Virus record (IMG/VR): IMGVR_UViG_3300010885_014887
Span: 1-64,000 of that record
Length of the DNA: 64,000 nt
Source: a virus
Strand: one strand, 5' to 3'
Below, piece by piece: positions 32,730 to 64,000 of the stretch; within the stretch, counting starts at the first letter, position 1, and each line of letters begins with the position of its first letter. Position numbers and translations under genes: made by a program. The notes under the pieces are model-generated. The model was not told the origin of the DNA, made no database searches, and saw nothing but the letters and a program-made list of their open reading frames with translations.

Positions 32730-33080
32730 ATGGATGACAGATTAAAATCTGCTCTCGATGTAGCTAATCGAATGGTTACATTTAATACTCAAAAAGAATT
32801 AATAAAGCAAGAATATAAAGAAAATTGTCTTTACTACGAAAATGGGCATCAATTTACAGTTAATCGAGAACTTATTAATTTTTTAACATCACTTATCCAA
32901 ATGGGATATACTGAAGATGTAGTAGTCGTTGATGATTTTGAAAATCCATATATGATATCTAATATTGAAGATTTTCGTTCTGCTATTTTTGATATTTACG
33001 CAGAAACAAGTAATCATTATTATCAAAAATATATCGAATTAAAGAAAAGTCGTTCGGTATTAACGATGATTGGAATATAA
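32730..33080 (+). CDS. Hypothetical phage protein, first gene of the accessory operon
   Basis: 116 residues, acidic and helical in appearance. A predicted helical N-terminus (RLKSALDVANRMVTFNTQKELIKQEYK) is followed by short strands (EDVVVVDDFENPYMI) and a C-terminal helix. No known motif is visible. It has a good ribosome site (GGAG, spacing 7) and the sigma70-like promoter directly upstream, and its stop codon abuts the next start. It could be a small regulator or adaptor, but nothing shows this. Confidence 0.5.
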   Translation: MDDRLKSALDVANRMVTFNTQKELIKQEYKENCLYYENGHQFTVNRELINFLTSLIQMGYTEDVVVVDDFENPYMISNIEDFRSAIFDIYAETSNHYYQKYIELKKSRSVLTMIGI

Positions 33081-33962
33081 ATGTCATTGGGTGTATTAAT
33101 GTTTGCCCATAATAATCGAGAAATTGATTACGGTACAATGGCATATGTATCGGCTAGATATGTGAACAAATATCTAAATGTACCAGTGAGTCTAGTAACA
33201 GATTCTAGTACAGTTAGATGGTTAGATAATAAAGATCCTAATATAATAAAATTCTTTGATAAGATTATCTTAACTGATAACATACCCCAACCTAATAGGC
33301 AGGATAAAAGATTTTATGACGGGTCTTTAACTTTTAAAAGGATACCTTTTAAAAACGGATTTCGTTCTCGAGCGTATGAGTTAAGTCCTTATGATAAAAC
33401 TCTAGTAATAGATACTGATGTGTTAATTAAGAATGATAGATTAAAATATATATGGAACTCTAATACAGATTTTATGATTAATTCTAAACATATTGATATT
33501 GCACAAAATCGAGAGACTATGGAATTTAAAAGAGTTAGTGATCATACTATTGATTTTTATTGGGCTACAATTTTTTATTTTGAAAAAACAGAATGGACAA
33601 AAACTTTTTTCAATCTCTGTCAATTTATAGTTGAAAACTATGAATATTATAAATTCCTTTATCAGATATCATATTCAGTGATGCGCAATGACTATGTTTT
33701 TAGTATCGCTATTCATATAATGAATGGGTTTAATAATTTGACAAAGCCAGATACATTGCCTGCAGATTTATACTATACTGTTGACAGAGATGAATTGTAT
33801 CAGATTAATGATGATGGAACATTAATTTTTTTGATACAGAAAGCAAATGTTCTTGGAGAATATACTCTGGCTAAAACAGGAAATCAAAATATACATATAA
33901 TGAACAAGTACAGTTTTAATAGGAACACTTCAAGATTATTGGAGGTGCTAAATGACAACTAA
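33081..33962 (+). CDS. GT8-like glycosyltransferase (first of a pair)
   Basis: 293 residues with a GT-A nucleotide-sugar transferase layout. An N-terminal strand-turn (LGVLMFAHNNREIDYGTMAYVSA) is followed by VPVSLVTDS, a loop with R-R-Y-type basic residues (GFRSRAYELSP) and the metal/nucleotide motif KTLVIDTDVLI near residue 112. The DTD plays the role of the DxD motif. It is homologous in layout to the next gene, which it overlaps by 11 bases. The acceptor is unknown; host or virion glycans are both plausible. Confidence 0.65.
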   Translation: MSLGVLMFAHNNREIDYGTMAYVSARYVNKYLNVPVSLVTDSSTVRWLDNKDPNIIKFFDKIILTDNIPQPNRQDKRFYDGSLTFKRIPFKNGFRSRAYELSPYDKTLVIDTDVLIKNDRLKYIWNSNTDFMINSKHIDIAQNRETMEFKRVSDHTIDFYWATIFYFEKTEWTKTFFNLCQFIVENYEYYKFLYQISYSVMRNDYVFSIAIHIMNGFNNLTKPDTLPADLYYTVDRDELYQINDDGTLIFLIQKANVLGEYTLAKTGNQNIHIMNKYSFNRNTSRLLEVLNDN

Positions 33963-34821
33963 GGGTTATGTAATATTAGCACAGAATAATAGTTCTAATG
34001 ACTATGTACGTATGGCATATGTCTTGGCTCTTTCTATAAAGTTAACTCAAAAAGAAATTACATCTGTTTGTCTTATTACAGATGTTCCTGACGCGGTTCC
34101 TCATCATTGTAACAAAGTTTTCGATCATGTTATACAAATACCTTGGTATGATGATGCACTAAATTCAGAATGGAAGATAGAAAATCGATGGAAGATTTAT
34201 TACATTACTCCATATGACGAAACTATATTACTTGATGCTGATATGTTGTTTTTAAGCAATGTTGATAACAGATGGAAATTTCTTAACAAGAATTATGATT
34301 TATTCATTACTTCAGATGTGTTGACTTATAGAAATGAATTAGTGATTGATAATTATTATAGAAAGGCATTTGTAGAAAATAAACTACCAAATACTTATAG
34401 TGCTTTTACATATTTTAAAAAATCAAAACTTGCTGATGAATTTTGGTTGCTAGTTGATATTATATATAAAAATTGGCAAGAATTTTATAATAGATTTCTA
34501 CCAAACTATAAACCAACACATCTTAGTATGGATGTAGTATTTGCATTGGCAGTAAAGATATTAGATATAGAAGACCAAATTACAACACCATTTACTTATC
34601 CTACCTTTATACATATGAAAAGTCGTATACAGAATTGGGGAAATATTTCTAACGAATGGACAGAATCTATAACACCCTATATTAGCAACGAAGGTAAACT
34701 TAAAATAGGTAATTTCCAGCAGACTGGTATATTTCACTACACGGAGAAGAAGTTTTTAAATAGACATGTAGAGAATGTATATCGAACGATATATGAGGAA
34801 AGATTAAATGGATCAAAATGA
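33952..34821 (+). CDS. GT8-like glycosyltransferase (second of a pair)
   Basis: 289 residues. The order of features mirrors its upstream neighbour: KGYVILAQNNSSNDYVRMAYVLA, SVCLITDVPDAV, IENRWKIYYITPYDETILLDADMLFL, where DAD (near residue 96) is the DxD-type site. A later TFIHMKSRIQNWG and FHYTEKKFLNRHV could shape the donor pocket. A strong GGAGG ribosome site sits inside the end of the previous gene, and the stop overlaps the following gene by 14 bases, so the two enzymes should be made together. Duplicated transferases suggest two steps on one glycan. Confidence 0.66.
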   Translation: MTTKGYVILAQNNSSNDYVRMAYVLALSIKLTQKEITSVCLITDVPDAVPHHCNKVFDHVIQIPWYDDALNSEWKIENRWKIYYITPYDETILLDADMLFLSNVDNRWKFLNKNYDLFITSDVLTYRNELVIDNYYRKAFVENKLPNTYSAFTYFKKSKLADEFWLLVDIIYKNWQEFYNRFLPNYKPTHLSMDVVFALAVKILDIEDQITTPFTYPTFIHMKSRIQNWGNISNEWTESITPYISNEGKLKIGNFQQTGIFHYTEKKFLNRHVENVYRTIYEERLNGSK

Positions 34822-35437
34822 AAAAGATGCAATTGAAGAATTGCTTAGAGTCCTCTCTGAAAAATCTAATCCAATGTACTATTTTTATTACGATCCCTCG
34901 ACTGGTGAAATAATACATATGCGAAATTATCTAGAAGTAGATAAATTACCACATATTGAAATTCCTCAAAGCGAAGTTGAAAGTAATATAATGTTTTCTT
35001 TATCTGATTATCAGATATTAGAAAAAGATGAAAAAATACAATTAGTTAAAAAAGAAAAAATAATTGATGTATCTAGAATATACAGTAATATAAAAGATAT
35101 CAAACGACTATTCATTAATCCTATTAACGAAATATCTCACAGGATTTACCAGTATGATATATTAATTGAACAAGACACAATTAAAAAAGAATATAGAATA
35201 AGATTGTCTGATGTAATAAAAGATCATTCTGAAAAATATTTAGATTTAAATCAACAATTTATTTTTTATGTAACCAAAGATTATGATCCTAACATTGTTC
35301 TTAATACACTTTATACTTCATTCCAGGAATTGTTAAAATGTTCTAGTGTTACTATACCTTATAGTGATCATGATGAAATTTATTCTAATATATTTTCTTC
35401 TTATTCTTATGATTTTTTACATTTGGTGATTGTATGA
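34808..35437 (+). CDS. Hypothetical protein between glycosyltransferase genes
   Basis: 209 residues, charged, with YYFYYDPSTGEIIHMRNYLE near the start, a pattern often seen as a beta-hairpin in phage proteins of unknown function. The middle is Lys/Glu/Ile-rich and the end hydrophobic (SYDFLHLVIV). No catalytic motif is visible. It has a GAGGAAA ribosome site, starts inside the upstream transferase and shares an ATGA overlap with the next gene. Operon membership suggests a role with the surrounding transferases only by association. Confidence 0.5.
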   Translation: MDQNEKDAIEELLRVLSEKSNPMYYFYYDPSTGEIIHMRNYLEVDKLPHIEIPQSEVESNIMFSLSDYQILEKDEKIQLVKKEKIIDVSRIYSNIKDIKRLFINPINEISHRIYQYDILIEQDTIKKEYRIRLSDVIKDHSEKYLDLNQQFIFYVTKDYDPNIVLNTLYTSFQELLKCSSVTIPYSDHDEIYSNIFSSYSYDFLHLVIV

Positions 35438-36309
35438 ATATTATGTTACATGATATTGATACTATATTCATTAGCTACGACGAACCTAATGCTGATAAAA
35501 ATTATTCAGAATTAGTAAAGATATTACCATGGGCTAAACGTATTCATGGAGTTAAAGGCAGTGATAGCGCACACAAGGCTGCTGCTAATCTAAGTGAAAC
35601 TGACAGATTTATTACAGTTGATGCTGATAATATAATAGATCCTAAGTTTTTTTCGCAGATTATTCTTTTAACAGATGAAAATAAAGATTATGTATTTTCG
35701 TGGTGCGGAAAGAATTCGATAAATGGTCTTATATACGGCAATGGCGGACTTAAATGTTGGACTAAAGATTTTGTCCTCAACATGAAGACACACGAAAATG
35801 CAGATCCCAATGACGCTGAAAGTGTAGTTGAATTTTGCTTCGACCCTAGATATTATCAAATGAATGAATGTTATTCTACAAGTTATATCAATGGCAGTCC
35901 TTTCCAAGCATGGCGGGCTGGCTTCCGTGAAGGAGTTAAGATGTGTCTTGATAGGGGAGCAAAATCTGAAAATATTAAAAGAGTTTGGTGGCAGAATTAT
36001 CATAGATTATTAATATGGTGCAATGTTGGTGCTGATGTAAAAAATGGCGTATGGGCAATTTATGGAGCTCGGTTAGGTTGTTATCTTACAGCGTGTACTG
36101 AATGGGATTACACGCAAGTAAGAGATTTTGAGTACTTAACAGATTATTGGAAGAAACATGTTGAACATGTTGATGTTGAAAATGAAGTTGAAGGTATTGG
36201 AAATAATTTACGTCAAAATTTAAATTTAGAAATAGCAGATTTAGATGTTAATGCTTCTCGATTTTTTAAATCTGTATACCAAAATACCCCCAGAGTGATA
36301 GAAAGATAA
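35434..36309 (+). CDS. GT-A-like glycosyltransferase of phage type (paralogue of the gene at 42323)
   Basis: 291 residues. DTIFISYDEPNADKNYSELV, then AKRIHGVKGSDSAHKAAA, and RFITVDADNIIDPKFF with a DAD metal-type site near residue 68 form a GT-A-like nucleotide-binding half. NSINGLIYGNGGLKCW and SPFQAWRAGFREGVKM are shared almost step for step with the smaller protein at 42323-43000. Such proteins occur in marine phage islands and are usually called glycosyltransferase-like. A four-base ATGA overlap couples it to the gene before. The donor and acceptor are unknown. Confidence 0.58.
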   Translation: MNIMLHDIDTIFISYDEPNADKNYSELVKILPWAKRIHGVKGSDSAHKAAANLSETDRFITVDADNIIDPKFFSQIILLTDENKDYVFSWCGKNSINGLIYGNGGLKCWTKDFVLNMKTHENADPNDAESVVEFCFDPRYYQMNECYSTSYINGSPFQAWRAGFREGVKMCLDRGAKSENIKRVWWQNYHRLLIWCNVGADVKNGVWAIYGARLGCYLTACTEWDYTQVRDFEYLTDYWKKHVEHVDVENEVEGIGNNLRQNLNLEIADLDVNASRFFKSVYQNTPRVIER

Positions 36310-36310
36310 A

Positions 36311-37543
36311 ATGACAATGAGTAAGACTATTTGTGCTGTTCCGTGGATGCATCTAAATTTTGAACCTAATGGTAAAGTAGTGCCATGTTGTTTAACAAGT
36401 TATCATAATTATTTTGCAGGTGATCTTAATAAAGAGTCTATTGAAGAAATTTGGAATAGTCAAAATATGAAAGATCTCCGCAAGGAGATGATAGCAGGAA
36501 ATGAACCAAAGATATGCAGTACTTGCTTCGATAGAGAAAAAGTAACTGGAGAGAGCGGACGCATCTATCAAAATAGAGAATTTAAAGATATAGTGGAAAA
36601 AATTCCAGATATCACTCTTGAAGATGGCACTTGTACTACTATGGATCTATTATATTGGGATTTTCGTTTTAGTAATCTATGTAATTTTAAATGTCGCAGT
36701 TGCGGTCCAAGATATAGTTCAGCATGGGTTTCTGATATTAAAAAATTAGGATGGAAGATGGAGGTGGAAAAGGTCACTAACATCGATTCTGTTGACGATG
36801 AGACTAATTTTGATTTTCTTAAAGATCAGATTAAGACAGTAAGAAAGATTTATTTTGCTGGAGGCGAACCTTTATTGATGCCAGAACATTGGCAGATATT
36901 AGAACTTTTAGTAGAGAACAAGAGATTTGATGTAAAATTAAATTATAATACTAATGCTTCTAATTTAACATATGGTGGGAAGAATGTTTTAGATTATTGG
37001 AAACAATGGGAATATGGTAAGTTAGAAGTTTGGCCTAGTATTGACGAGATAGGAGATCGTGCCGAACTTATACGTTCAGGAACTGTCTGGTCTAAAGTAG
37101 AAGATAATCTAAAAGAAATTTCTAAGTTTGAAAATATCATTATACGTCCGGGAATTACAGTTGGTGCTTGGAATGTTAATAGATTACCTGAGATCATATA
37201 TCATCTAGTTGATATTGGGGTCATTAGACCAACATTGAAGCATAAGAATTTCTTTTTAAATCTATTATCTCATCCTACACATTATCACGTACATATATTA
37301 TCTGATGATTATAGGAAATCTACGATTGAAAAATTAAAAAAATTTATGGTAGATTATGATAGAAATTATGGAACTAATATCGAGCCATTGTTTATTCACA
37401 TTTTGCATGAACTTGAAAAACCATTTTCTCCTTCTGCTGCTAAAAAGTTTTTAGAAATTACAAAACAAATAGATACGATTCGTGATGAAGATATCTTTAG
37501 AGTTATTCCTGATTTAGAAGACATACGGAGAATAAATATATGA
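36311..37543 (+). CDS. Radical SAM protein with N-terminal SPASM/twitch-like Cys domain (subfamily A)
   Basis: 410 residues. Before the radical SAM core comes a Cys-rich domain: CAVPWMHLNFEPNG, then a CC pair at 26-27 and CSTCFDRE at 69-76. This is SPASM/twitch-type sequence, normally found after the core. The core has C124-x3-C128-x2-C131 (LCNFKCRSCG) for the [4Fe-4S] cluster and FAGGEPLL for SAM binding. The C-terminal half continues the barrel (YNTNASNL, WPSIDEIGDRAELIRSG). Members of this group modify peptides, proteins or small molecules; the substrate is not visible. It shares an ATGA overlap with the next gene. Two relatives occur at 49939 and 53945. Confidence 0.85.
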   Translation: MTMSKTICAVPWMHLNFEPNGKVVPCCLTSYHNYFAGDLNKESIEEIWNSQNMKDLRKEMIAGNEPKICSTCFDREKVTGESGRIYQNREFKDIVEKIPDITLEDGTCTTMDLLYWDFRFSNLCNFKCRSCGPRYSSAWVSDIKKLGWKMEVEKVTNIDSVDDETNFDFLKDQIKTVRKIYFAGGEPLLMPEHWQILELLVENKRFDVKLNYNTNASNLTYGGKNVLDYWKQWEYGKLEVWPSIDEIGDRAELIRSGTVWSKVEDNLKEISKFENIIIRPGITVGAWNVNRLPEIIYHLVDIGVIRPTLKHKNFFLNLLSHPTHYHVHILSDDYRKSTIEKLKKFMVDYDRNYGTNIEPLFIHILHELEKPFSPSAAKKFLEITKQIDTIRDEDIFRVIPDLEDIRRINI

Positions 37544-38547
37544 TTAAGACGGATAAAGCATTAAAAGTAAATGCTATTAATTCTAAAAATAAAAATATGT
37601 TAGAATTAGAGTATGCGATACTGGATATTGATATATCTGATCGATGGATATCTCTTATTAATAAAAATAACGATCTTAAACGTACTTTAAGATATAATTA
37701 TCGTAGAATTTTAACAGATTTAGAAGTTGAAGAAAAATTTCAAGATTTTAAAAATAACATTCTTTATATAAATGATCATTATGATAGGAAATTAACTGAT
37801 ATAATTTCTTTAGATTTCTTACATGGAAACCAAGATATATTAAATGATCTACATGAAGAATATGAGATTTATGGAGATAGGCTAGCAGAATTAGTAAATG
37901 ACAGATATTTTGATGATCCTATGAAGAGTGTATTTTTTAATCCTATCTGGCCCGGAATAAGACAGAATAAAATTTTACACGAGGGATTTCTTTTATTAAA
38001 CGAACAGATACATAATTTTGAAGCAATATTTCGTTCATATGGAAATAATAAAAGATTCTTATGCACTTGTTTGTTTGATTTTATGCCATCTGGCATACAT
38101 GAAAATTTAAAACCAGAAGATTTTATGTTATTTTCTCCCGAGTCACAATGGGGATGGGCATATTTAGGATATAACACTTTAGGAAAACATTGGGGTAGTG
38201 CGTGTCATGATAATGATATAGAAGCAGTAAAAAGAAAAGCCATTAGACCACAACAAAGATTTGCTGCTGAAACTTACTTGAATTTTAATTTAAATTCTGG
38301 AGGATATTCAACCCGTGTTAAATTATATAAATGGTGGTTAAAGAATAATTTCAGTGAAATACATGATCCAAATATGAGATTGAATGAATTTTGTTTAGGA
38401 TTTATTCCAATTGCAAAATTTACTGGTTATAAGATTAATAATCTCAATTGGACTACAATTGATGAAAAAACCAATCAAGAAGAATGGAATGCTAGTGTTT
38501 GGAGTTTATTTGATACTATAGATTCTGTAGAGATAATTACTAGATGA
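37540..38547 (+). CDS. Hypothetical protein lying between two radical SAM genes
   Basis: 335 residues with no recognisable motif. The first half is Asp/Asn/Lys-rich with likely helices. The second half has conserved-looking aromatic stretches (ESQWGWAYLGYNTLGKHWGSACHD near residue 200, then AAETYLNFNLNSGGYSTRVKLYKWW) that suggest a compact enzyme or binding fold. ATGA overlaps at both ends tie it to the flanking radical SAM genes, so a substrate-presenting or partner role is possible but unsupported. Confidence 0.5.
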   Translation: MIKTDKALKVNAINSKNKNMLELEYAILDIDISDRWISLINKNNDLKRTLRYNYRRILTDLEVEEKFQDFKNNILYINDHYDRKLTDIISLDFLHGNQDILNDLHEEYEIYGDRLAELVNDRYFDDPMKSVFFNPIWPGIRQNKILHEGFLLLNEQIHNFEAIFRSYGNNKRFLCTCLFDFMPSGIHENLKPEDFMLFSPESQWGWAYLGYNTLGKHWGSACHDNDIEAVKRKAIRPQQRFAAETYLNFNLNSGGYSTRVKLYKWWLKNNFSEIHDPNMRLNEFCLGFIPIAKFTGYKINNLNWTTIDEKTNQEEWNASVWSLFDTIDSVEIITR

Positions 38548-39491
38548 ACCAAGAAAAGATTATAAGAGTAGAACAAAGTAAAGATAGTCCATTATACCTA
38601 ACATGGATTATTAACAATATTTGTACTAATCAATGTAGTTATTGTCCAACATCACTTCATAACGGAACAAATCATAATTACAGTTGGGATAATGCTAAAA
38701 AGTTTTTTAAATTGTTATTTGAAAGATATCCAAAAATTCATTGTTCAGTAGCAGGGGGGGAACCAAGTGTTAGTCCATTTTTTCCAGAATTTGTAGAAAT
38801 TTTTCGTAAAAATAATTCTACAATAGGGTTAACATCAAATGCTGCTAAAACTGTTAAGTATTGGGAAAGACTTGCCCCTGATTTACAATATATTTGTTTT
38901 AGTTGGCATTCGGAATTTATAGATAAAGATTTTGATGAAAAAGTAAAAGTTGCATCACAATATACTCCAGTAACTGTTAGGATAATGATGCATCCTGCTC
39001 ACTGGGAAAAATGTGTAGAAAAGTTTAATAGTTATAAAAAACAAAATTCTGTTTTCTTTGAAGCTGTCCGTATACATTATTGGGGCGGCGGCTCTGATCT
39101 AAATGCGTCTATATATACTGATGATCAGTTACAATGGTTTAAAGAAAATGATAATGATAAATTTAAATTTATAATACCTAATTATAATAAACCTCCGTTA
39201 ATTATGAAATCAATTTTTTATTTTAATAATGGAGAAGTTATTGAATACGGTAACACTGTGAAATATATTAATAATGGTCTTACTAATTTTAATGGGTATA
39301 ATTGTGCTATTGGTCTCAGATCATTATTTATTGATTATCAGGGACAAATTCAGAGAGGAAATTGTTCAGTTGGTGGATATATTGGAAATATTAACGATTC
39401 GGATAATATTCAATGGCCTACTGAACCTGTAAAATGCAATATAAATCTTTGTCATTGTACAACAGATGTTGAGATTGAAAAATGGATTTAG
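38544..39491 (+). CDS. Radical SAM protein, short type with C-terminal Cys cluster (subfamily B)
   Basis: 315 residues. C27-x3-C31-x2-C34 (ICTNQCSYCP) binds the radical SAM cluster, and SVAGGEPSVSP at 68-78 is the SAM-binding turn. The tail has single cysteines near 254 and 274 and ends with CNINLCHC, the remnants of a SPASM/twitch auxiliary cluster. The same tail pattern, ending x-E-x-W, occurs in the protein at 51212. The GGE codons contain a run of seven G (38754-38760), unusual in this AT-rich DNA. It starts in an ATGA overlap and overlaps the oxygenase gene after it by 10 bases. Confidence 0.85.
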   Translation: MNQEKIIRVEQSKDSPLYLTWIINNICTNQCSYCPTSLHNGTNHNYSWDNAKKFFKLLFERYPKIHCSVAGGEPSVSPFFPEFVEIFRKNNSTIGLTSNAAKTVKYWERLAPDLQYICFSWHSEFIDKDFDEKVKVASQYTPVTVRIMMHPAHWEKCVEKFNSYKKQNSVFFEAVRIHYWGGGSDLNASIYTDDQLQWFKENDNDKFKFIIPNYNKPPLIMKSIFYFNNGEVIEYGNTVKYINNGLTNFNGYNCAIGLRSLFIDYQGQIQRGNCSVGGYIGNINDSDNIQWPTEPVKCNINLCHCTTDVEIEKWI

Positions 39492-40147
39492 ATTTTCCAA
39501 AAGAATTAATGGAATTTTATGAAGCAAATAAATCGTTTTCGTCTCCTGTACACGATAATGTTATATCGTCACGAGACGATATAAATTGCGCATATTATCC
39601 TATAAAGTTTAATTTTGATACAGAATTACTTTTAGAAGAATGTAAGAGCGTAGATCATTTATATTTTAATCATAGAAACCAAGATAAGAAAAAAGGATAT
39701 GGTCATCGAGGTTGGCAGAGTCTTACATTGCATGGAATAGACAAACATAAGACAGAACATTTTATTAGATATGGATTTAATACACTAGAAGAAGCAAATT
39801 ATCATTGGACTGATGTATGTGAAAATGTTCCTAACCTTTATAAATTTTTGAGTAGTCTTCCTTATAAAATATTTGATCGTGTTAGGATTATGCGATTAGC
39901 ACCATATGGTTATATAATGCCTCATACTGATGGAAATGGTCGGATATTCAGTCCATTGAATATCGCTATAAATAATCCCGATAATTGTCATTTTGTTTTT
40001 AAAGACAAAGGAATAGTACCTTTTGTTGCTGGCACTGGAATGATTATTGATGTAGCACAGGAACATATTGTTATTAATCAGAGCGACGAACCAAGATATC
40101 ATATTATAGTTCATGGACATCAATCAAGTGAGTTTACAAAATTATGA
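39482..40147 (+). CDS. Asp/Asn beta-hydroxylase-like Fe(II)/2-oxoglutarate oxygenase
   Basis: 221 residues. RIMRLAPYGYIMPHTDGN (about 135-152) supplies His148 and Asp150. FSPLNIAINNPDNC follows, then QEHIVINQSDEPRYHIIVHG gives the third ligand His195 and Arg205 for 2-oxoglutarate. This matches the aspartyl/asparaginyl beta-hydroxylase (cupin-type) family. It overlaps the radical SAM gene before it and the unknown gene after it (ATGA). The product likely hydroxylates a side chain or small molecule made in the same pathway. Confidence 0.78.
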   Translation: MDLDFPKELMEFYEANKSFSSPVHDNVISSRDDINCAYYPIKFNFDTELLLEECKSVDHLYFNHRNQDKKKGYGHRGWQSLTLHGIDKHKTEHFIRYGFNTLEEANYHWTDVCENVPNLYKFLSSLPYKIFDRVRIMRLAPYGYIMPHTDGNGRIFSPLNIAINNPDNCHFVFKDKGIVPFVAGTGMIIDVAQEHIVINQSDEPRYHIIVHGHQSSEFTKL

Positions 40148-41490: not shown

Positions 41491-41496
41491 TTTAAA

Positions 41497-42300
41497 ATGA
41501 CAAAAATTCTAATTTATGGTGACAGTTTTTCTTCTTGTGAAAATTCCTTTTGTTGGTCATTTTTTTTAAAAGATCAATATAATGTAGAAGTAAGAAACAA
41601 GGCAATTAGTGGATCTAGTACTGAAAATGCTATGATTGAATTTGAATCTTCTATTAGAAATAATGAAATAAATGATGGAGATACTATTATATTCCAACTT
41701 AGTACACCTGGTAGATTTTATTTAAAAATACAGCGTGATTACCCTGAAACTGCTTCGTTATTTTATCACCCAGTTTCTCCTACTCATTATAAATACCAAT
41801 GGTGGAAAGAAAATAAAAATCATATTGATTGGTATTTAGGTAATTTTGATAATCATGTTAACATTATAAATCATGAATGTTATATACATGTTATGAAGAA
41901 TTATGCTGAATCTTTTCCTAATCAAAAAGTAATGGTTTTACAAAATACTTCTCAGGATATAAAATTTCCAATTTCACGAACACTATCAAATTTCTATATG
42001 CCTAATATAGATTTAAATAAAATTGCCGAAAACGAAATAATAGATTTTAAATCATATAACGATTGGTCAAAATATACCGGATGGGATTTTAGAGAAAATC
42101 ATTTGTCTATTCCAAATAGACAAATATTAGTTAATTTAATCTATGAAAGTTTACAGACAGGAAACACTGATAATTTTACTTATGATAGATTTCAAAAAAA
42201 TATCTTTAGAAGAATGGAAAATTTAGATCAATACTTGCATTATGTTACTAATGGTTATTTAAATGATGATCCTAGAAAAAGATCATCTTTTCAAAAATAA
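41497..42300 (+). CDS. SGNH/GDSL-like hydrolase
   Basis: 267 residues. Block I is ILIYGDSFSS (Ser near residue 10 as nucleophile), block II is AISGSSTENAM and the C-terminal pair DFRENHLSIPNRQI carries the His of block V. The intermediate IIFQLSTPGRFYL takes the place of block III. Such enzymes deacylate or acylate sugars and lipids. Next to glycosyltransferases, an O-acetyl group on a glycan is a reasonable substrate, but this is inference. A second, different SGNH-like protein is at 52113. Confidence 0.68.
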   Translation: MTKILIYGDSFSSCENSFCWSFFLKDQYNVEVRNKAISGSSTENAMIEFESSIRNNEINDGDTIIFQLSTPGRFYLKIQRDYPETASLFYHPVSPTHYKYQWWKENKNHIDWYLGNFDNHVNIINHECYIHVMKNYAESFPNQKVMVLQNTSQDIKFPISRTLSNFYMPNIDLNKIAENEIIDFKSYNDWSKYTGWDFRENHLSIPNRQILVNLIYESLQTGNTDNFTYDRFQKNIFRRMENLDQYLHYVTNGYLNDDPRKRSSFQK

Positions 42301-44941: not shown

Positions 44942-44953
44942 ACTGTAAATTTC

Positions 44954-52108: not shown

Positions 52109-52112
52109 TTAG

Positions 52113-55406: not shown

Positions 55407-55413
55407 ATATTCT

Positions 55414-55421: not shown

Positions 55422-55426
55422 CAGAT

Positions 55427-56911: not shown

Positions 56912-56915
56912 TATA

Positions 56916-58397
56916 ATGAAGAATCATGCACTAATATTTCCATGTGTTTATCCTGATAAGATACAAAGATCTTTAGGGGGGCATCGTATTGCTTCTTTTT
57001 TACGAGAATATAATTGGGATGTTGAGGTTATAGATTATGTGTTACATTTTACTATTGATGAATTAAAAGAAATAGTTAGATCTAGAGTAACTTCTTGTAC
57101 AAAATTTTTTGGATTTTCTTTTATTTTTAATGAATATGATCATAATTTCCTACAAGAATTTTTACCTTGGTTAAAGAAAATGTATTCGGATATTTTAATA
57201 ATCTTTGGAGGACAAAATATTGTTGTAAATCCATATCCTGCTGATTATTATGTAAATGGTTTTGGTGAAAATGCATTGATGGCAATACTTAACTATCATT
57301 TTACAAATAGTAATAAAGAATTAAAACTAGATGATCGATGGTTATTGGTAGGAAAAAAAGTTATTACAAATAATAACTACTCTTCTGCTCCAATGAAAAG
57401 CCTATTAGTGAATTATGAAGATAGAGATTTTATTCAACCAGATGAATGGGTGTATACCGAATTAAGTAGAGGATGCAAGTTTAAATGTGAATTTTGTAAT
57501 TTTCCTTTGTTAGGAGTAAAAGGTGATTGGACCCGAGATGCAGAAGATTTTGAATTATATTTAAAAAACATGTACGATAGGTTTGGAGTTAAAAATTATT
57601 ATATTACAGATGAGACATTTAATGACTCAACTGGAAAAATAGAGAAATTTTCTAATGTAGTTAAAAGATTAGATTTTGATCCTATATTTTCGGGATTTAT
57701 TAGAGCAGATTTATTAGTTAGTCGTCCATTAGATAGAGAATTATTAGGAGAAATGGGATTCATATCTCATTTTTACGGAACAGAAACTTTTAATCATTTA
57801 ACTGGTAAGATAATAGGTAAAGGAATGCATCCGGATAGACTTAAAGAAGGTTTACTAGATGTTAGAAAATATTTTAAAAATAATACCGTATTATATAGAG
57901 GGCAACTTACTTTAATTGTTGGATTACCTCAAGAAACAGAAGAGACTATCGCACAATCTGTTGATTGGATTTTTAATAATTGGCAAGGCGAGGCTATAGT
58001 ATTTAATTCGTTAGAGTTACAAGAATTTAATAGTTTAGATGCTAATTTAAGTATATTATCTAAAAATCCAGAAAAATACGGGTATAGAAGATCAAATATA
58101 CCTATCCCCTCAGTTGACACATTTGAAAGTAAAAAAAAATATATACAGACTAAATTTTCAGACAAAATTTTTAATTGGGAAAATGATAATTTTACTTATT
58201 CTAGAGCATTAGATTTAGTTAATAAAATTTATCTAAAAGCACATAAGTTAGATTTTAGATTAGGTGCGTTTAATCTACATGTTTCTGGAGTAAATGATAT
58301 AAATGAAACTTTAAAATGTGATCAGAAAGTTTATAATTGGTCAGCATTTGATGGAAAAATTTCTAGATATAAAAACAGTAAGATAAATTATAAATGA
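56916..58397 (+). CDS. Radical SAM protein with B12-binding-like N-terminal domain (second of tandem pair)
   Basis: 493 residues, colinear with the gene before it: ASFLREYNWDVEVIDY, ILIIFGGQNIVVN, C187-x3-C191-x2-C194 (GCKFKCEFCN), TDETFNDS, GTETFNH and GLPQETEETI. Differences cluster in the first 160 and last 100 residues, so the two enzymes may accept different substrates. Again the DxHxxG motif is missing. It follows the first copy after four bases and overlaps the kinase-like gene after it by an ATGA. Confidence 0.83.
   Translation: MKNHALIFPCVYPDKIQRSLGGHRIASFLREYNWDVEVIDYVLHFTIDELKEIVRSRVTSCTKFFGFSFIFNEYDHNFLQEFLPWLKKMYSDILIIFGGQNIVVNPYPADYYVNGFGENALMAILNYHFTNSNKELKLDDRWLLVGKKVITNNNYSSAPMKSLLVNYEDRDFIQPDEWVYTELSRGCKFKCEFCNFPLLGVKGDWTRDAEDFELYLKNMYDRFGVKNYYITDETFNDSTGKIEKFSNVVKRLDFDPIFSGFIRADLLVSRPLDRELLGEMGFISHFYGTETFNHLTGKIIGKGMHPDRLKEGLLDVRKYFKNNTVLYRGQLTLIVGLPQETEETIAQSVDWIFNNWQGEAIVFNSLELQEFNSLDANLSILSKNPEKYGYRRSNIPIPSVDTFESKKKYIQTKFSDKIFNWENDNFTYSRALDLVNKIYLKAHKLDFRLGAFNLHVSGVNDINETLKCDQKVYNWSAFDGKISRYKNSKINYK
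57919..57992 (+). repeat. 74-base perfect direct repeat, copy 2
   Basis: Second copy of the stretch at 56421-56494. Neighbouring regions of the two genes differ at many silent positions, which makes this block stand out. Confidence 0.85.
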
Positions 58398-59086
58398 AAA
58401 ATATAGACATAACTGACTGGACAAATTACGGAAAATTGATAGATGGTGCATATTCAAGATCTAATCTATTATATACTCCTAAAATGAATAAAAATAAAGA
58501 TATACTTTGTATGTCATGGGATATACATGACCCATACCAGTATAATGATGGAAAAAAAAGAGAAGGTTTAACATTAGAGTTGATGGATTTCTTTTTTGAA
58601 AGAGAAGTAAAAAATCTACAGTTTTTTAAAGATTATGATTGGGTTCCTAAAATTTTAGATTTAGATATTTTTAATAAAAAAATATTTTTAGAATGGAATG
58701 GTGATACAGTAAATGATCTTATAAGTAAAGGATATAACATAGATGAGATTTGTCCTACATGGAAAAATCAATTACATAATATTTTAAATGATATTTTAGA
58801 TTCTGGTTATTATAAAATGAGTTTATATACACACTGTTTTTTTATTAATAATAAAGGAATATTAAAAACTTTTGATTTTTATGCCTGTGTTGAGCGCAGT
58901 TATCCTTTTATAGAAATAAAAAAATTAAAAGGAATGATGGGAGAAGATTCTTCTGGAAGATTCCAAGAGGCTACTGTAAATGATTATGTAGATTTTGATT
59001 TTTTCTTTAAACAAGCTATTAAAAAATATATTAAATGGCCTGATAATGCATTGATGGAATTTTATAAGGAAAAATTTAATGAATGA
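58394..59086 (+). CDS. Hypothetical protein with weak kinase-like features
   Basis: 230 residues, very rich in Asp, Asn, Phe and Lys. EREVKNLQFFKDYDWVPKIL followed by IFLEWNGDTVNDLI resembles the strand-hinge part of small kinase-like phosphotransferases. LYTHCFFINNKGILKTFDFY could correspond to a catalytic-loop plus DFx region, though the usual HxD is lacking. I would not name it a kinase on this basis. It is coupled by ATGA to the radical SAM gene before and overlaps the oxygenase-like gene after it by eight bases. Confidence 0.4.
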   Translation: MKNIDITDWTNYGKLIDGAYSRSNLLYTPKMNKNKDILCMSWDIHDPYQYNDGKKREGLTLELMDFFFEREVKNLQFFKDYDWVPKILDLDIFNKKIFLEWNGDTVNDLISKGYNIDEICPTWKNQLHNILNDILDSGYYKMSLYTHCFFINNKGILKTFDFYACVERSYPFIEIKKLKGMMGEDSSGRFQEATVNDYVDFDFFFKQAIKKYIKWPDNALMEFYKEKFNE

Positions 59087-59654
59087 TTATATTGGTAATT
59101 GTAAAAATTTAATAGATTGGAATAAAGTTATAGAAAATTTAGAAAAATCTGATGAAGGTGAAATTTTTAACAAAAAAAGAATAGAAAAATTAATAGAAGA
59201 TATATCTAAAGATGTAAAAAATTCTTCCGAAATCGAACATAATAAACAAACTTCTGTGATATGGAAAGAAAATAATTATTTTTTAGACTCGATCAATTTT
59301 AAATTATATCGACCTGGAAAAAATTACGAACATACAATTTGTGATATAATTTCTTCTTTTTTAAAAGGAAAATATTTAACGTCGAGTATAAGTAGAGTAG
59401 ATCCTGGATTCACAGTAGGAATACATAGGGATTCAACACCAAATTTATTGTTAGATAAAACTGTTAAGAGATATGTTATTTTTATAAATCCTCCAGAAGT
59501 GGGACAAATCTTTATATTAGGAGATGAATGTTTTCATAATGAAGAATTAGGAAATATTTATGAATGGAGAAATATGGATTTATTGCACTCTGCTGCTAAC
59601 ACTAGTTTTAAATCACAATATCTTTTTCATATTGAGTGTAAATTTGATATATAA
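59079..59654 (+). CDS. HxD...H oxygenase-like protein (first of an array)
   Basis: 191 residues. It opens with YIGNCKNLIDWNKVIENLE, the N-terminal tag shared by the array. ISRVDPGFTVGIHRDS supplies His116 and Asp118, YVIFINPPEVGQIFILGDECF the central strands of a double-stranded beta-helix, and LLHSAANTSFKSQYLFHIEC the third ligand His170. Layout and spacing fit Fe(II)/2-oxoglutarate oxygenases. It is most like the next gene. Confidence 0.65.
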   Translation: MNDYIGNCKNLIDWNKVIENLEKSDEGEIFNKKRIEKLIEDISKDVKNSSEIEHNKQTSVIWKENNYFLDSINFKLYRPGKNYEHTICDIISSFLKGKYLTSSISRVDPGFTVGIHRDSTPNLLLDKTVKRYVIFINPPEVGQIFILGDECFHNEELGNIYEWRNMDLLHSAANTSFKSQYLFHIECKFDI

Positions 59655-59657: not shown

Positions 59658-59680
59658 TTTTTTATAATTGAGGATTTAAA

Positions 59681-60295
59681 ATGGCAACATATATTGGTAA
59701 TTGTGCTGATCTAATTGATTGGAAAAAAATTACTGCTCCGTTGGATGATATAGTTTCGGATGAACTATATAACGCCGATACGATGAGACTTTATGAAAAT
59801 CATTTTCTCAATAGCACTAATCAATTAAGTGATTTTTTAAAAGATCAAGTTGCTACGAGTTCAAGTCAAATAGATTATAATTTATTTTTAATCAAAGAAT
59901 GGTCTTCAAAGTATAGACTAGATACGATTGGTTTTTCTTTATATAGACCTGGAAAACATTATGATGCTACAGTAGATAATATTTTAATAAAACTATTAGG
60001 AGGTAATATTACTACTACATCAATAAGTAGATTAGATCCTGGCTATAATGTACCTATCCATGAAGATTATACTAATATAAAAGAACCAAACTATGATCCT
60101 AATAAAAAAGTTTGTAGATATGTTATTTTTATTACTCCTCCAGAAACTGGACAATTCTTTACATTAGGAGATGAATGTTTTCATAATATAAAAATTGGCG
60201 AAATCTATAAATGGGATCGTCCACAACAACTACATTGCGCTGCTAATGCTAGTTATAAGATAAATTACCTTTATCATTTACAAGTAGAATATTAA
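59681..60295 (+). CDS. HxD...H oxygenase-like protein (array member 2)
   Basis: 204 residues. YIGNCADLIDWKKITAPLDD opens it; ISRLDPGYNVPIHEDY gives His127 and Asp129, RYVIFITPPETGQFFTLGDECF the core strands and QLHCAANASYKINYLYHLQ the third ligand His185. It is clearly the paralogue of the gene before. It has its own late promoter and a good ribosome site, so it can be expressed apart from the upstream radical SAM operon. Confidence 0.66.
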   Translation: MATYIGNCADLIDWKKITAPLDDIVSDELYNADTMRLYENHFLNSTNQLSDFLKDQVATSSSQIDYNLFLIKEWSSKYRLDTIGFSLYRPGKHYDATVDNILIKLLGGNITTTSISRLDPGYNVPIHEDYTNIKEPNYDPNKKVCRYVIFITPPETGQFFTLGDECFHNIKIGEIYKWDRPQQLHCAANASYKINYLYHLQVEY

Positions 60296-60299
60296 AAAT

Positions 60300-61124
60300 A
60301 TGAATGATTTATCTGGATTAACGGCATTAGTTACTGGCGGCGGCCAAAATATAGGATTAGGAATCTCGAAAGCTTTGGCAAAACGAGGTGCTAATATTAT
60401 TGTAGCACAGCGTTCAAAAGAAATAGCAAACGATTGTGCTAAGATGATATCTAACAATTATGGAGTAAAATCTATTGCGATATCGTGTGATTTAACAAAA
60501 CAAAACGATATAGACATGTTATTTAAAGAATCCCAATTATATTTTGAAAAAATAGACATTTTAGTTAACGGAGTTGGTGGAAGATTGGGAATTGATTCTA
60601 TTAAAATAGAAGATCTAACACTAGATCAAATAAATGATAGCATGGATTTAAATTTTAAAACTGCTTTTTTATGTATGAAATCGGTTTTTCCGTTGATGAA
60701 AAAACAGAATTTTGGAAGAATTATTAATGTAACAAGCCATATCACTGAAGGTTTCCATGCCTATAGTGCTCAATACAATATAAGTAAACAGGCATTAGTT
60801 AGTCTTACAAAAACAGCAGCAGTTGAATGGGGAAAATATAATATTACAGTTAATGCTATATGTCCTGCTGTAGGTAATGAGAAAATTAAAGTATTAGAAG
60901 GCACAGATTTACACAACCTAATACTTAAAATGATACCCACGGGACACTTATCTACTTCTGAAGATGATGTTGGATCTATAGTTTCATGGTTAGCAAGTAA
61001 AGAGTCAAGATCTATTACAGGTACAATTCAATATGTAGATGGCGGCGTACATATAAATGGTTTAGGTTCAGATGGCGATAAAACTTTTCACGAAGCTATT
61101 AAAAAAACAACACGAGTGCCATAA
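60300..61124 (+). CDS. Short-chain dehydrogenase/reductase, FabG-like
   Basis: 274 residues. LVTGGGQNIGLGIS (12-19 TGGGQNIG) binds NAD(P), CDLTKQ positions the adenine, ILVNGVGGR replaces the usual NNAG, and Ser146, Tyr159 and Lys163 (YNISK) form the catalytic triad with classical spacing. AICPAV and a C-terminal ITGTIQYVDGGVH complete the family pattern. It reduces or oxidises a carbonyl/hydroxyl of an unknown metabolite. It is flanked by oxygenase-like genes, which makes a hydroxylate-then-oxidise sequence conceivable. Confidence 0.88.
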   Translation: MNDLSGLTALVTGGGQNIGLGISKALAKRGANIIVAQRSKEIANDCAKMISNNYGVKSIAISCDLTKQNDIDMLFKESQLYFEKIDILVNGVGGRLGIDSIKIEDLTLDQINDSMDLNFKTAFLCMKSVFPLMKKQNFGRIINVTSHITEGFHAYSAQYNISKQALVSLTKTAAVEWGKYNITVNAICPAVGNEKIKVLEGTDLHNLILKMIPTGHLSTSEDDVGSIVSWLASKESRSITGTIQYVDGGVHINGLGSDGDKTFHEAIKKTTRVP

Positions 61125-61125
61125 A

Positions 61126-61677
61126 ATGGAAAATGTTTTATTTTTAGGACAATTTAATGAAATAAATTGGAATGATATATTGGAGGATTTAGAAAATAAA
61201 AAAGGTATTAGTATAAATCCTGATTTTTCTAAATGGAATTTAAATACACCAGGATACTTGCAAATTTATAAAATATGGAAAGATGCTAAATTTAATTCTA
61301 ATGCTATTGAATGGATAAATTATTATCCCGAAGATCACTATCCGACATCTGTTGTAGACTCAATAGCAAGATTTTTAAATGTAATTCCTTTACGATCTTG
61401 GATCAGTCAAATCAATCCTGGATATTTTGCTCCATGGCATTGGGATGTAGACGATAATGAAACTGAATATTTAAAATTAGGAACGCCAATAAGGTATAGT
61501 TGTTTTATAGAATCTCCTTCGCATGGCCATATATTTATAATTGGAAATGATTATCTTTACAATCAAGATCAAGGGAATTTATATCAATGGATAGATTATA
61601 AAGAATGGCATAGTGGGATAAATGCCGGAATGGTTCCAAAATATATGTTTCATTTAATTGGAATCAAACGTAGTTAA
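61126..61677 (+). CDS. HxD...H oxygenase-like protein (array member 3)
   Basis: 183 residues from the ATG at 61126, directly after the dehydrogenase stop; the frame is open further upstream, but that part overlaps the dehydrogenase. FLGQFNEINWNDILEDLE is the array's N-terminal tag. ISQINPGYFAPWHWDVDD gives His105 and Asp107 and KEWHSGINAGMVPKYMFHL the third ligand His162. Its end overlaps the convergent paralogue by 24 bases. Confidence 0.65.
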   Translation: MENVLFLGQFNEINWNDILEDLENKKGISINPDFSKWNLNTPGYLQIYKIWKDAKFNSNAIEWINYYPEDHYPTSVVDSIARFLNVIPLRSWISQINPGYFAPWHWDVDDNETEYLKLGTPIRYSCFIESPSHGHIFIIGNDYLYNQDQGNLYQWIDYKEWHSGINAGMVPKYMFHLIGIKRS

Positions 61678-62181
61678 TTGTAATGTGTATCTATTGTCGT
61701 ATCCAATATTAACGCACCCATGATAACACAGTGGATCTACCCATTGATATAAATCTCCTGCTTTATAATTTGTAATAATATTATCTTCCCAAACAAAAAT
61801 ATGTCCTGGTTTAAAATCTTCTAGAAACATAGTATATCTTTTTGGATTTTTAATGTCTATTAAATGCGGATCGAAATGCATCGGTTGCATTTGTCCCGGT
61901 AATAATTTAATTATCCACCAAAGAATCTGTCTATTGTCATTTGGCAATTTAGGCAATACTATATTAAATTCTTTCATATCATTGGATTTTTCATTAAACT
62001 GCTGGAAGTAATGATTTGATTGACTATAACCTTCTCTAGCCCGTTCTAACGCTTCTTCCAATAATGGATTATCTTTCCATCTATACGGTTGCCATACAGG
62101 TGTTGTGTCTCCATTGTGAGATTTTATATGACTCATTAAATTTTCAGTTATTAATTCTTTATAATTGCCAATATATATCAT
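61654..62181 (-). CDS. HxD...H oxygenase-like protein (array member 4)
   Basis: 175 residues. MIYIGNYKELITENLMSHI opens it. LLPGQMQPMHFDPH gives His102 and Asp104, YTMFLEDFKPGHIFVWEDN the core and CYHGCVNIGYDNRYTLQL the third ligand His154. It is closest to the next gene on the same strand. Six bases separate the two. A function on a product of the island is inferred from context only. Confidence 0.63.
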   Translation of the reverse strand: MIYIGNYKELITENLMSHIKSHNGDTTPVWQPYRWKDNPLLEEALERAREGYSQSNHYFQQFNEKSNDMKEFNIVLPKLPNDNRQILWWIIKLLPGQMQPMHFDPHLIDIKNPKRYTMFLEDFKPGHIFVWEDNIITNYKAGDLYQWVDPLCYHGCVNIGYDNRYTLQLTTFDSN

Positions 62182-62187
62182 CTTTTT

Positions 62188-62679
62188 TTACTCGTAAGTA
62201 GCACATTGAAAAGTTAGTCTTGGGCTATAACCAATATTAGACGCTCCGTGTATTATATTTGGATCATCATAAACCCACATGTCTCCTAGTTTATAGTCGG
62301 TAATAAATGTTTTATCATATATGAATATATGACCAGGTTGATAATCTTGTAAAGGCATCCAATATCTAATATAATTAGTTTTATCTGGTAAAAACACATC
62401 TTTATGCATCGGCATAAAATTTCCTGGAGTCATTTTTATGAACCACCATTGCTCGTATCCTTTTGTTTGAAAAGGAAGTTTTACTTTAAATGGAAAACTA
62501 CGAGAGTCATATGAATGCCAATATGTTTTTGTTAAATCGTAACCACATTCTGATGCTATACGAAATTCTTCTGTATCAGGATTTTCGCTTTTTCCTGGTC
62601 TCTCAACGCCATCGTTTGACATTATATAATCTACCCATCTTGGATCTATCCAATTTTTAAAATTTCCTATAAATTTCAT
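62188..62679 (-). CDS. HxD...H oxygenase-like protein (array member 5)
   Basis: 163 residues. MKFIGNFKNWIDPRWVDYI repeats the tag. KMTPGNFMPMHKDVF gives His92 and Asp94, IRYWMPLQDYQPGHIFIYDK the core strands and IIHGASNIGYSPRLTFQCA the third ligand His144. The start shares one base with the stop of the larger oxygenase-like gene upstream. Confidence 0.63.
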   Translation of the reverse strand: MKFIGNFKNWIDPRWVDYIMSNDGVERPGKSENPDTEEFRIASECGYDLTKTYWHSYDSRSFPFKVKLPFQTKGYEQWWFIKMTPGNFMPMHKDVFLPDKTNYIRYWMPLQDYQPGHIFIYDKTFITDYKLGDMWVYDDPNIIHGASNIGYSPRLTFQCATYE

Positions 62680-63485
62680 TAGTAACTCTCTAAATGATCT
62701 ATATTTAATTTTTTTCTAAATGAATCTGAAAATTTACCATCAATTCTTAATCCGTAACTTTGCTCTATTATTTTTTCTCCACCATGCCAATCTTGATCAT
62801 TCCACCATGCTGCTCTGGTATTTAGATAAATTTTATTTTTTGTATTAGGGTCCCATAAGTAAAATGCTTTTTTTGTATTTGGTCTAATATGTATAAATTC
62901 ATTTCTATGTAATGTATACGTTTGGTTATTTCCTTTATTTCCATCAAAATCTCTATGCTCAAATGGTATACCATCAGCTTCGCAATGAAAAAATATTACT
63001 CTTCCTATACTGTCAAAGATATTATCTTCTATCATTTTCTCTACCCACTTAACAACATTTGGAAAATAAGCGGCTTCTTCCGTTAGTTTTCTTGGAGATG
63101 ATCTTTCATCCCAACTACCTTGTTCCCATAAGAAGTAATAGATGTAAGGATCATATGCTCCCATAGCCATTTTTATATATCTAGTAAATTTATTCCTAAT
63201 TCTAAAATCATGGAAGTCTTTATATAAATCAATACCTCCTTTTTTTACAGGATTATCATCAGGGAGGGCTAAGAATTCTTCTATTGCTTTATAAATTGGT
63301 TTCCAGTGTATATTATAACTCATGTCTTTAAAATCAAAACCTGGTTTCATCCATGTACCTTCTTTAGCAAACTCTCTAGATTCGCTAAATCCTCTATATA
63401 TTTCTGGTTGTAATTTTTCAAAGGTGTCCATGTCTATATATGGTTCTATATCAAAATAAGGTTGATTATTAATCCCCTTAATCAT
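62679..63485 (-). CDS. 2-Oxoglutarate/Fe(II) oxygenase-like protein, larger type
   Basis: 268 residues. GRVIFFHCEADGIPFEHRDF gives His177 and Asp179; EFIHIRPNTKKAFYLWDPNT and YLNTRAAWWNDQDWHGGE give the strands and third ligand His234; and SYGLRIDGKF has Arg247, the expected 2-oxoglutarate anchor. It has the same metal triad as the array but a different N-terminal half with many aromatic and charged residues, so it is a separate branch. It shares an ATGA overlap with the gene upstream. Confidence 0.68.
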   Translation of the reverse strand: MIKGINNQPYFDIEPYIDMDTFEKLQPEIYRGFSESREFAKEGTWMKPGFDFKDMSYNIHWKPIYKAIEEFLALPDDNPVKKGGIDLYKDFHDFRIRNKFTRYIKMAMGAYDPYIYYFLWEQGSWDERSSPRKLTEEAAYFPNVVKWVEKMIEDNIFDSIGRVIFFHCEADGIPFEHRDFDGNKGNNQTYTLHRNEFIHIRPNTKKAFYLWDPNTKNKIYLNTRAAWWNDQDWHGGEKIIEQSYGLRIDGKFSDSFRKKLNIDHLESY

Positions 63486-64000
63486 GGGTATCTCCTATAT
63501 TTTTCAGGAATTAAATCTGGCAAAGGTAATCCTTTATTTAATAATGCATCTCTTAAAATAACTTGATGTACTAGAGGAGAAATTGGATATCCTGGCAATA
63601 TATCTGCCCACGCTTCTGTTTGTATTTCTTCTAAATCTATAGTTCTAGCATCAGGCCATTGTATAAGTTTTACAAAAACGCCATTAATTAAAAATGGATA
63701 ATGTGCCCTAATACCACTTTTTTCTAATGGAATAATAGACCAGTTGTTTTTATATGCTATTTCCTTTGTCTTTTGCACTAATTGGCTTAGATAAATTTGT
63801 GGTTGTTTTGGATTTCTACCTATATCAGCACTACATCTTATCCTAAAATTTGCGGATGTTTTTTTATAAAGTTCTTGTATTTCTTTTAGGCAATATTCCA
63901 TTTGTGACATATCGTCTAATGTATAACTAATATCTTTTATTGTTAATCCTAGTTTAATACAATTTTCAATACCTTCTACTTGCTTTTTTCTTATTTTTAA
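63482..64000 (-). CDS. C-terminal part of a probable radical SAM protein (runs off the right edge)
   Basis: The ATG at 63910 is internal: the frame stays open for 30 more codons to the window end and reads naturally (VEGIENCIKLGLTIKDISYT, then LDDMSQM). The visible 172 residues contain FRIRCSADIGRNP, a YLSQL step, GIRAHYPFLINGVFVKLIQW and PDARTIDLEEIQTEAW, ending with SPLVHQVILRDALLNKG. This tail pattern is one I associate with radical SAM proteins of marine microbes; the CxxxCxxC motif would lie outside the window. Without it the assignment is provisional. Confidence 0.5.
   Translation of the reverse strand, partial: LKIRKKQVEGIENCIKLGLTIKDISYTLDDMSQMEYCLKEIQELYKKTSANFRIRCSADIGRNPKQPQIYLSQLVQKTKEIAYKNNWSIIPLEKSGIRAHYPFLINGVFVKLIQWPDARTIDLEEIQTEAWADILPGYPISPLVHQVILRDALLNKGLPLPDLIPEKYRRYP

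Follow-up and report, generated by a model that had tools for sequence, protein, structure and literature searches.

A radical SAM-rich island in the tail region of an uncultured T4-like phage and its place in a widespread, possibly sugar-decorating gene module

The window analysed here is a stretch of 64,000 bases, positions 1 to 64,000 of the 68,463-base IMG/VR viral record IMGVR_UViG_3300010885_014887. From position 32,730 onwards it carries an island of genes for radical S-adenosylmethionine (SAM) enzymes, oxygenases and glycosyltransferases, which is best explained as inserted among the tail-fibre genes of a T4-like phage. The island consisted of a glycosyltransferase core plus recurrent cassettes and was an expanded member of its type. 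Islands of this type recur in dozens of uncultured phages and, judged by their genes, point to a widespread sugar-decorating assembly line. We tentatively suggest that the island encodes a cytosolic line for building glycans and tailoring them by radical chemistry, most likely for the tail proteins of the virion. Genes are on the plus strand unless marked (−).

Relatives of the island were detected by searching IMG/VR with an alignment of N-twitch radical SAM proteins (family A), which gave at least 592 confirmed places, the best 80 of which were kept. The family profile recovered 428 copies spread over 96 viral loci, which commonly had five or six each, and the CxxxCxxC motif was kept in all 372 full-length homologues. 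Neighbour maps of loci selected by their radical SAM genes revealed a repeated gene order. It opened with a small conserved protein (z, 32730–33080), found in 44 of the first viral loci and in 69 of 80 loci derived from glycosyltransferase searches. Two GT8-like glycosyltransferases followed (G, 33081–33962 and 33952–34821), then a variable protein conserved in its position (y, 34808–35437), a GT2-like glycosyltransferase (g, 35434–36309) and, finally, a tandem array of radical SAM genes. Upstream of z, a homologue of the tail-region protein f2 (31726–32670, assigned by synteny) was present in 61 of the 61 loci with enough upstream sequence to be testable, usually within about 115 bp. The same 61 loci included 55 in which a homologue of the tail-fibre protein f1 (30129–31688, PHROG tail fibre and synteny) preceded z by no more than 3.5 kb.

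As the array loci had been chosen for radical SAM genes, the fair test of co-occurrence was the reciprocal one, starting from glycosyltransferases. Loci selected with the GT2-like protein carried z and the glycosyltransferases, but only 27 of 71 had a radical SAM gene among the four genes that came next. The glycosyltransferase core is thus the conserved part and the radical SAM array an addition at a fixed site; a strict dependence of the core on radical SAM genes was rejected. In loci L177 to L255, a z-G-G-y-g-g core without any radical SAM gene, followed by opposite-strand genes, was common; it represents a conserved set of glycosyltransferases located after tail genes. Queries with y, G and g from the window and from related phages found no match in cultured phages.

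Gene order within the arrays was conserved. In 52 arrays with at least three family A genes after g, tree clades were compared with array position. The mutual information between the two was 1.34 bits, against 0.36 in within-locus shuffles (2,000 shuffles, maximum 0.51). The pairwise order of the five largest clades was kept in 29/29, 30/30, 23/23, 33/33, 24/24, 20/20, 24/24 and 21/21 cases, and the last two comparisons gave 17/19 and 13/17. Since shared phage ancestry contributes to this result, the shuffle describes the conservation of order and is not a probability of function. The array members look like retained, non-redundant enzymes and not like recent copies. Recent gene amplification was rejected for the common arrays, which hold conserved orthologues in order, and was true only for a tandem pair in the window (family D, 55427–56911 and 56916–58397).

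Three cassettes of the island recurred elsewhere. Cassette 1 (36311–42300) comprised an N-twitch radical SAM protein (A, 36311–37543), a protein whose fold had no known match (X, 37540–38547), a short radical SAM protein with a Cys-rich SPASM-like C-terminal tail (B, 38544–39491), an Asp/Asn beta-hydroxylase-like 2-oxoglutarate-Fe(II) oxygenase (H, 39482–40147), a two-domain protein (Y, 40144–41490) and a GDSL/SGNH-like hydrolase or acyltransferase (S, 41497–42300). At least four of these six families occurred within 9 kb in 10 loci besides the sister contigs described below, against a label-shuffle mean of 0.8. Cassette 2 (42323–46640) held a paralogue of g (42323–43000), two B-type radical SAM genes (42981–43976 and 43964–44941), a putative methyltransferase (M, 44954–45562) and a C-type radical SAM gene (C, 45555–46640). 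The combination g-B-M-C was found within 7 kb in another 10 loci besides the sister contigs (label-shuffle mean 0.3). For cassette 3 (48392–52108), made up of an aminotransferase-like gene (T, 48392–49249), a QueC/PP-loop-like ATPase (Q, 49242–49967) and radical SAM genes of family A (49939–51219) and type B (51212–52108), T was accompanied by two of Q, A and B in three loci besides the sister contigs. A fourth block (55427–65273), with B12-radical SAM, kinase-like, oxygenase and SDR (short-chain dehydrogenase/reductase) genes, was found as a block only in the sister contigs.

Several of these families were also found in single open reading frames (ORFs). The GT2-like protein was joined to an N-twitch radical SAM protein in two loci (L028:3478–5409, L016), A to B in three (L021, L030, L031) and X to B in one (L008). 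H and Y were fused in both orders (L096:4152–6218, and L124 on a contig from a bacterial metagenome-assembled genome). The radical SAM motif was intact in each radical SAM part, and each fused glycosyltransferase had a VDGD motif. These fusions come from metagenome assemblies, and the A-B fusion was seen on separate contigs. Going by the predicted proteins, they tie together glycosyltransferase, radical SAM and hydroxylase parts physically. The idea of a dedicated pathway, put forward in the original prediction from the sequence alone, is well supported by the two cassettes with 10 loci each, the conserved array order and the fusions.

N-twitch radical SAM genes were also present on bacterial contigs, often from Bdellovibrionota, some with homologues of H, T, B, C or Y nearby; these neighbourhoods were of mixed context and gave no decisive substrate clue. 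Four Bdellovibrionota contigs (L107, L109, L112, L155) carried radical SAM islands in which genes related to the phage A, H, T, C or Y families occurred. Among large viral records, the number of PF04055 matches reached 18; the 211-kb record with 18 Radical_SAM matches (L034) also contained the window's Q and T genes.

Twelve, probably 13, radical SAM genes in five subfamilies had been predicted for the window, and this count held. Radical_SAM (PF04055) gave 13 matches in the 68,463-base record, 12 of them in ORFs wholly inside the window. The thirteenth ORF (63482–64531, −) begins inside the window and runs past its end at position 64,000. Protein comparison separated five families: A (36311, 49939 and 53945–55330, −), B (38544, 42981, 43964, 51212 and 52947–53948, −), C (45555 and 46618–47700, −, the latter with SPASM), D (55427 and 56916) and E (63482), the last HMPTM/Tes-like with an HMPTM zinc ribbon. 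Two genes were close to the threshold. The product of 46618 fell below the PF04055 cut-off in the record-wide scan and reached 30.1 bits against a cut-off of 29.5 in a later scan; 49939 reached the threshold in the record-wide scan only together with neighbouring matches. The first family A protein, 36311, matched N_Twi_rSAM (NF033640) with 364.8 bits (cut-off 170), and 49939 and 53945 were its paralogues (E=6e-41 and 3e-36) with N-terminal SPASM/twitch matches. The alignment of B-type proteins was too diverse for a collection-wide scan. The D pair, with B12-binding-like domains, matched TIGR04479 best, at 62 bits against a cut-off of 600, and the B12-binding Pfam match was below its own cut-off. 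By sequence, they resemble PhpK/HpnJ-like B12-dependent radical SAM methyltransferases in probable way of working only, below the family thresholds.

The predicted tally of eight Fe(II)-oxygenase-like proteins, four GT-A-like transferases, one SDR and two SGNH-like hydrolases was likewise recovered, the glycosyltransferases numbering four or five, with matches of differing strength. Two oxygenases, H (39482) and 47669–48352 (−), exceeded the cut-off of PF05118 (Asp/Asn beta-hydroxylase) with E=8e-12 and E=5e-7. Five more (59079–59654, 59681–60295, 61072–61677, 61654–62181, −, and 62188–62679, −) were paralogues of one another and shared an invariant HxD...H triad; the closest PDB entry to this family was a beta-hydroxylase at only E=0.026, and 62188 was below the PF05118 cut-off. 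The eighth (62679–63485, −) was oxygenase-like by its HxD...H motif alone, with no Pfam match. A joint profile of homologues of the paralogous G proteins matched residues 6–117 of glycogenin (GT8, E=2e-8), and a loose DxD pattern was present in 97 of 97 homologues; single G proteins had no Pfam GT8 match. G is a predicted GT8-like (glycogenin-like) glycosyltransferase. The two g proteins (35434 and 42323) belonged to one family with DxD conserved in 83 of 84 homologues. A PDB search with the family profile found no match, and 35434 scored 17.8 bits with the GT2 Pfam PF00535 (cut-off 23.3), so that this family may be called glycosyltransferase-like, short of the GT2 cut-off. The SDR (60300–61124) was clear (PF13561, E=1e-48), and the S protein and the one at 52113–52952 were GDSL-like (E=4e-6). 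For the aminotransferase-like and QueC-like genes, which had also been named, matches were present and weak (T, E=0.026; Q, PP-loop/NAD-synthase).

Other proteins were less easily placed. A protein-kinase fold was matched by the profile of K (58394–59086, E about 1e-7), and M was judged a putative methyltransferase by eye, lacking a Pfam match and recurring with g, B and C. Y was modelled by AlphaFold2 (AF2) as two domains with a pLDDT of 87. Its best PDB match in Foldseek, a weak GT-A-like one, was the human collagen hydroxylysine galactosyltransferase COLGALT1 (E=6.4e-4, TM only 0.23), and its close matches were solely uncharacterised phage proteins. X had a confident AlphaFold model (pLDDT 85) with two conserved LNxxH..E-type motifs and no match in a PDB fold search. 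Its family had 46 profile members, many directly after radical SAM arrays; on the model, X could possibly be a new metal-binding fold.

Phage genes flanked the island on both sides. The upstream genes encoded baseplate hub and wedge proteins, a late sigma factor, tail fibres and the product of a 4578-aa ORF; the last structural protein (tail or fibre, by PHROG matches) before f1 lay at 28644–30086. Downstream there was a fibre that combined an Mtd N-terminal domain with collagen-like repeats. The gp5-like, gp6-like and tail proteins and the 4578-aa ORF were in the order expected for the host recognition cluster of pelagimyophages and cyanomyophages, defined as the island between VrlC and gp14 with tail fibres included; gp14 would lie beyond the record. 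The 4578-aa protein was encoded by a single ORF (11862–25598) of the baseplate/tail region, in the same position as VrlC in marine myophages. A methyltransferase-like gene and the T4-type late sigma factor occupied the left end (361–2146, −). The island was tightly packed: across 36 consecutive junctions the largest gap was 96 bp, and 23 junctions overlapped. Rfam and tRNA scans of the window found nothing, and the phage collection held no near DNA match to it.

Two further IMG contigs, from different samples that we take to be freshwater, matched the record at 99.99–100%, one over 15.9 kb and the other along the compared parts of 36.1 kb. Because these independent contigs agree almost completely and phage tail genes flank both ends, the island is not chimeric; assembly chimerism was ruled out in practice. 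Neither a chimera nor a lack of co-occurrence elsewhere, both of which the original prediction had raised against itself, was found: the sister contigs held the same island, and its homologues co-occurred widely.

Clues to the substrate came from neighbouring genes and from profile matches. Of 146 proteins encoded after the arrays of other phages, 22 were carbamoyltransferases (NodU). NAD epimerase/GDP-mannose dehydratase, GDSL, FkbM, DegT and UDP-glucose dehydrogenase proteins also recurred there. The 41 proteins examined at the island and its end had no hydrophobic membrane segment, and of 149 neighbours downstream of arrays a single one had any. Searched against the PDB, the family A profile showed weak similarity to BtrN, a cyclitol enzyme, in its twitch part; the resemblance of its core to Tes, cytosylglucuronate decarboxylase and enzymes of peptides or nucleotides was weak throughout. 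Glycosylation of virions by phage glycosyltransferases has a precedent (Freeman 2023, as cited in PMC12619734).

From the composition, synteny, conserved order, gene fusions, glycosyltransferase-like profile and absence of membrane segments, all directly observed, we infer a common substrate for the glycosyltransferases and radical SAM enzymes, a sugar as that substrate, the virion as acceptor and all individual reactions. In this scheme the fixed core of soluble glycosyltransferases (G, G and g) would build a short glycan, and the beta-hydroxylase-like oxygenases and Y may prepare or extend the attachment points. After that, the sugars would be oxidised, epimerised, deoxygenated, methylated or acylated by the twitch/SPASM radical SAM, B12 methyltransferase-like, kinase-like, SDR, aminotransferase-like and GDSL proteins. 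As acceptor, the tail-fibre proteins of the phage itself are most likely, and their modification would take place in the cytosol ahead of assembly. That the island is a glycan-linked tailoring line we consider probable; given such a line, the balance tips slightly towards a virion acceptor.

Several points weigh against this proposal. Most loci selected by glycosyltransferase had no radical SAM gene nearby, so the glycosyltransferases do not need the radical SAM enzymes. The likeness of Y to the collagen galactosyltransferase is weak, and the Rfam, tRNA and fold searches yielded nothing on the acceptor. Adjacency to tail genes may simply mark a site where T4-like phages tolerate cargo, and lipid A-core, at the inner membrane, could also be a target of soluble glycosyltransferases. 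Finally, the proposal is read from genes, and the modified virion, the glycan and the enzyme activities are predictions.

The candidate substrates first put forward, host surface glycan, baseplate or fibre proteins and a small molecule, were sensible ones. The main rival is that, during infection, the island remodels the surface glycan of the host, either lipopolysaccharide (LPS) core or O-antigen, for example as a block to superinfection or an aid to release. LPS and exopolysaccharide loci typically contain GT8-like enzymes, epimerases, carbamoyltransferase and FkbM methyltransferase, glycosyltransferases and methyltransferases are found near some of the bacterial homologues, and pelagimyophage glycosyltransferases have been published as modifying the O-chain (PMC7029224). 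However, a priming transferase, flippase, polymerase and membrane glycosyltransferase were all missing, in keeping with the scarcity of membrane segments, and the strict linkage was to the tail proteins f2 and f1 and not to host-takeover genes. We regard remodelling of host glycan as unlikely, though a serious competitor. Direct modification of peptide side chains in tail fibre or baseplate by the radical SAM enzymes and oxygenases, in the manner of ribosomally synthesised and post-translationally modified peptides (RiPPs) and with glycosylation as a separate matter, appears distinctly unlikely. SPASM/twitch auxiliary clusters are frequent among peptide-modifying radical SAM enzymes, the island has Asp/Asn beta-hydroxylase-like oxygenases, a collagen-like fibre stands at its far end, and on one Bdellovibrionales contig (L114:6225–12355) two flagellin-like genes adjoin two N-twitch and one B-type radical SAM genes. 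Set against this, the fusions of glycosyltransferase with radical SAM and the sugar-gene neighbours favour sugars, and Pfam-type scans reported a peptide-recognition domain (RRE/PqqD) for no island protein. A RiPP cluster with a local precursor was rejected because the gene junctions leave no room for a precursor gene.

Production of a diffusible or intracellular small molecule, such as an aminocyclitol, nucleoside or antibiotic-like compound, is less likely again. The weak profile similarity to BtrN and cytosylglucuronate decarboxylase, the PhpK-like B12 enzymes and the aminotransferase-like, kinase-like and SDR genes are compatible with it, as is an N-twitch radical SAM gene among genes that by eye resembled those for acyl carrier protein and ketosynthase in a Paenibacillus isolate (L105:6284–16067). 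No export or resistance gene was identified in the island, though, and its core was obligately linked to tail genes. Hypermodification of phage DNA bases against restriction is improbable, even if glycosyltransferase-based DNA hypermodification is known in other phages (cited in PMC12619734) and 49242 is QueC-like: the oxygenases matched protein beta-hydroxylases and none matched the TET/JBP family, the island sits among tail genes, array neighbours were carbohydrate genes, and nucleotide-precursor genes were not seen in the island.

The original prediction had further held that such a pathway was not described for phages, which was true in part. Phages with 11–12 radical SAM genes and islands of glycosyltransferase and radical SAM genes are already published, so the density of radical SAM genes alone is not new. 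The ordered array, the glycosyltransferase core behind f2, the fusions and a function for them were not found described in the literature searched, which mostly excluded subscription journals. It is the architecture, with its core next to a single tail protein, its ordered N-twitch arrays and its gene fusions, that appears to be undescribed. The T4-like Campylobacter phages CP220 and CPt10 (Firehammervirus) have 11–12 radical SAM genes and an interchangeable module of five near baseplate genes (PMC2853527). That module pairs radical SAM genes with an amidinotransferase, for which the island proteins gave no match; the CP220/CPt10 radical SAM proteins were 27–32% identical to the B-type proteins of the window, and their records had no match to the window's N-twitch radical SAM, G or g queries. 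A gene that by eye is amidinotransferase-like, as in CPt10, was present in a Bdellovibrionia island (L109:5483–6559). TARA_ERS488813_N000010, a 183-kb T4-like marine environmental genome, has 12 radical SAM genes discussed as part of iron-sulfur metabolism (PMC5332604); we found no island architecture in its published description.

The host recognition cluster of pelagimyophages and cyanomyophages is a large, hypervariable island among structural genes that contains tail fibres, several glycosyltransferases (GT8 most frequent) and radical SAM cassettes, and freshwater SAR11 myophages were reported without radical SAM genes (PMC7029224). Unlike that cluster, the island in the window is dominated by radical SAM and oxygenase genes, and the paper describes neither the fusions nor ordered N-twitch arrays nor a fixed z-G-G-y-g core next to a single tail protein (PMC7029224). 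Moraphages, which are aquatic jumbo phages, have four core glycosyltransferase orthogroups whose target was not known in the paper; they are likened here by description, in which radical SAM genes are not mentioned (PMC12619734). Like mimivirus L230, which with R699 and human GLT25D1 represents the collagen-type hydroxylation and glycosylation enzymes (PMC9546862), the H-Y fusions join a 2-oxoglutarate-Fe(II) hydroxylase and a glycosyltransferase-like domain in one polypeptide. However, the hydroxylase family differs and the structural similarity of Y is weak, so that by analogy H-Y resembles L230-type enzymes in possible mode of action and not as a family member. Vibrio phage KVP40 and its relatives have a distant N-twitch homologue (about 22% identity), with a single radical SAM match per record and no glycosyltransferase core match found. 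In Vibrio phage K566 (L012:11705–22167), a few kb separate several radical SAM genes from one annotated as PagP, a lipid A acylation protein.

Phages with many radical SAM genes have been on record since 2010 with no function attached to them. Through the conserved order, the fixed glycosyltransferase core and the fusions, what had been an anecdote about cargo genes becomes a defined and widespread module with testable predictions, and the fusions provide single-polypeptide candidates for biochemistry, such as a 643-aa fusion of glycosyltransferase and radical SAM protein. It is possible, though we hold it as doubtful, that uncultured T4-like phages share an ordered pathway with no known counterpart, in which non-redundant twitch-radical SAM enzymes and coupled glycosyltransferases would build radical-tailored glycans on virion tail proteins. 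If virion proteins do carry such glycans, phage-host recognition would have a further, new layer, and new enzyme chemistry could be drawn from it.

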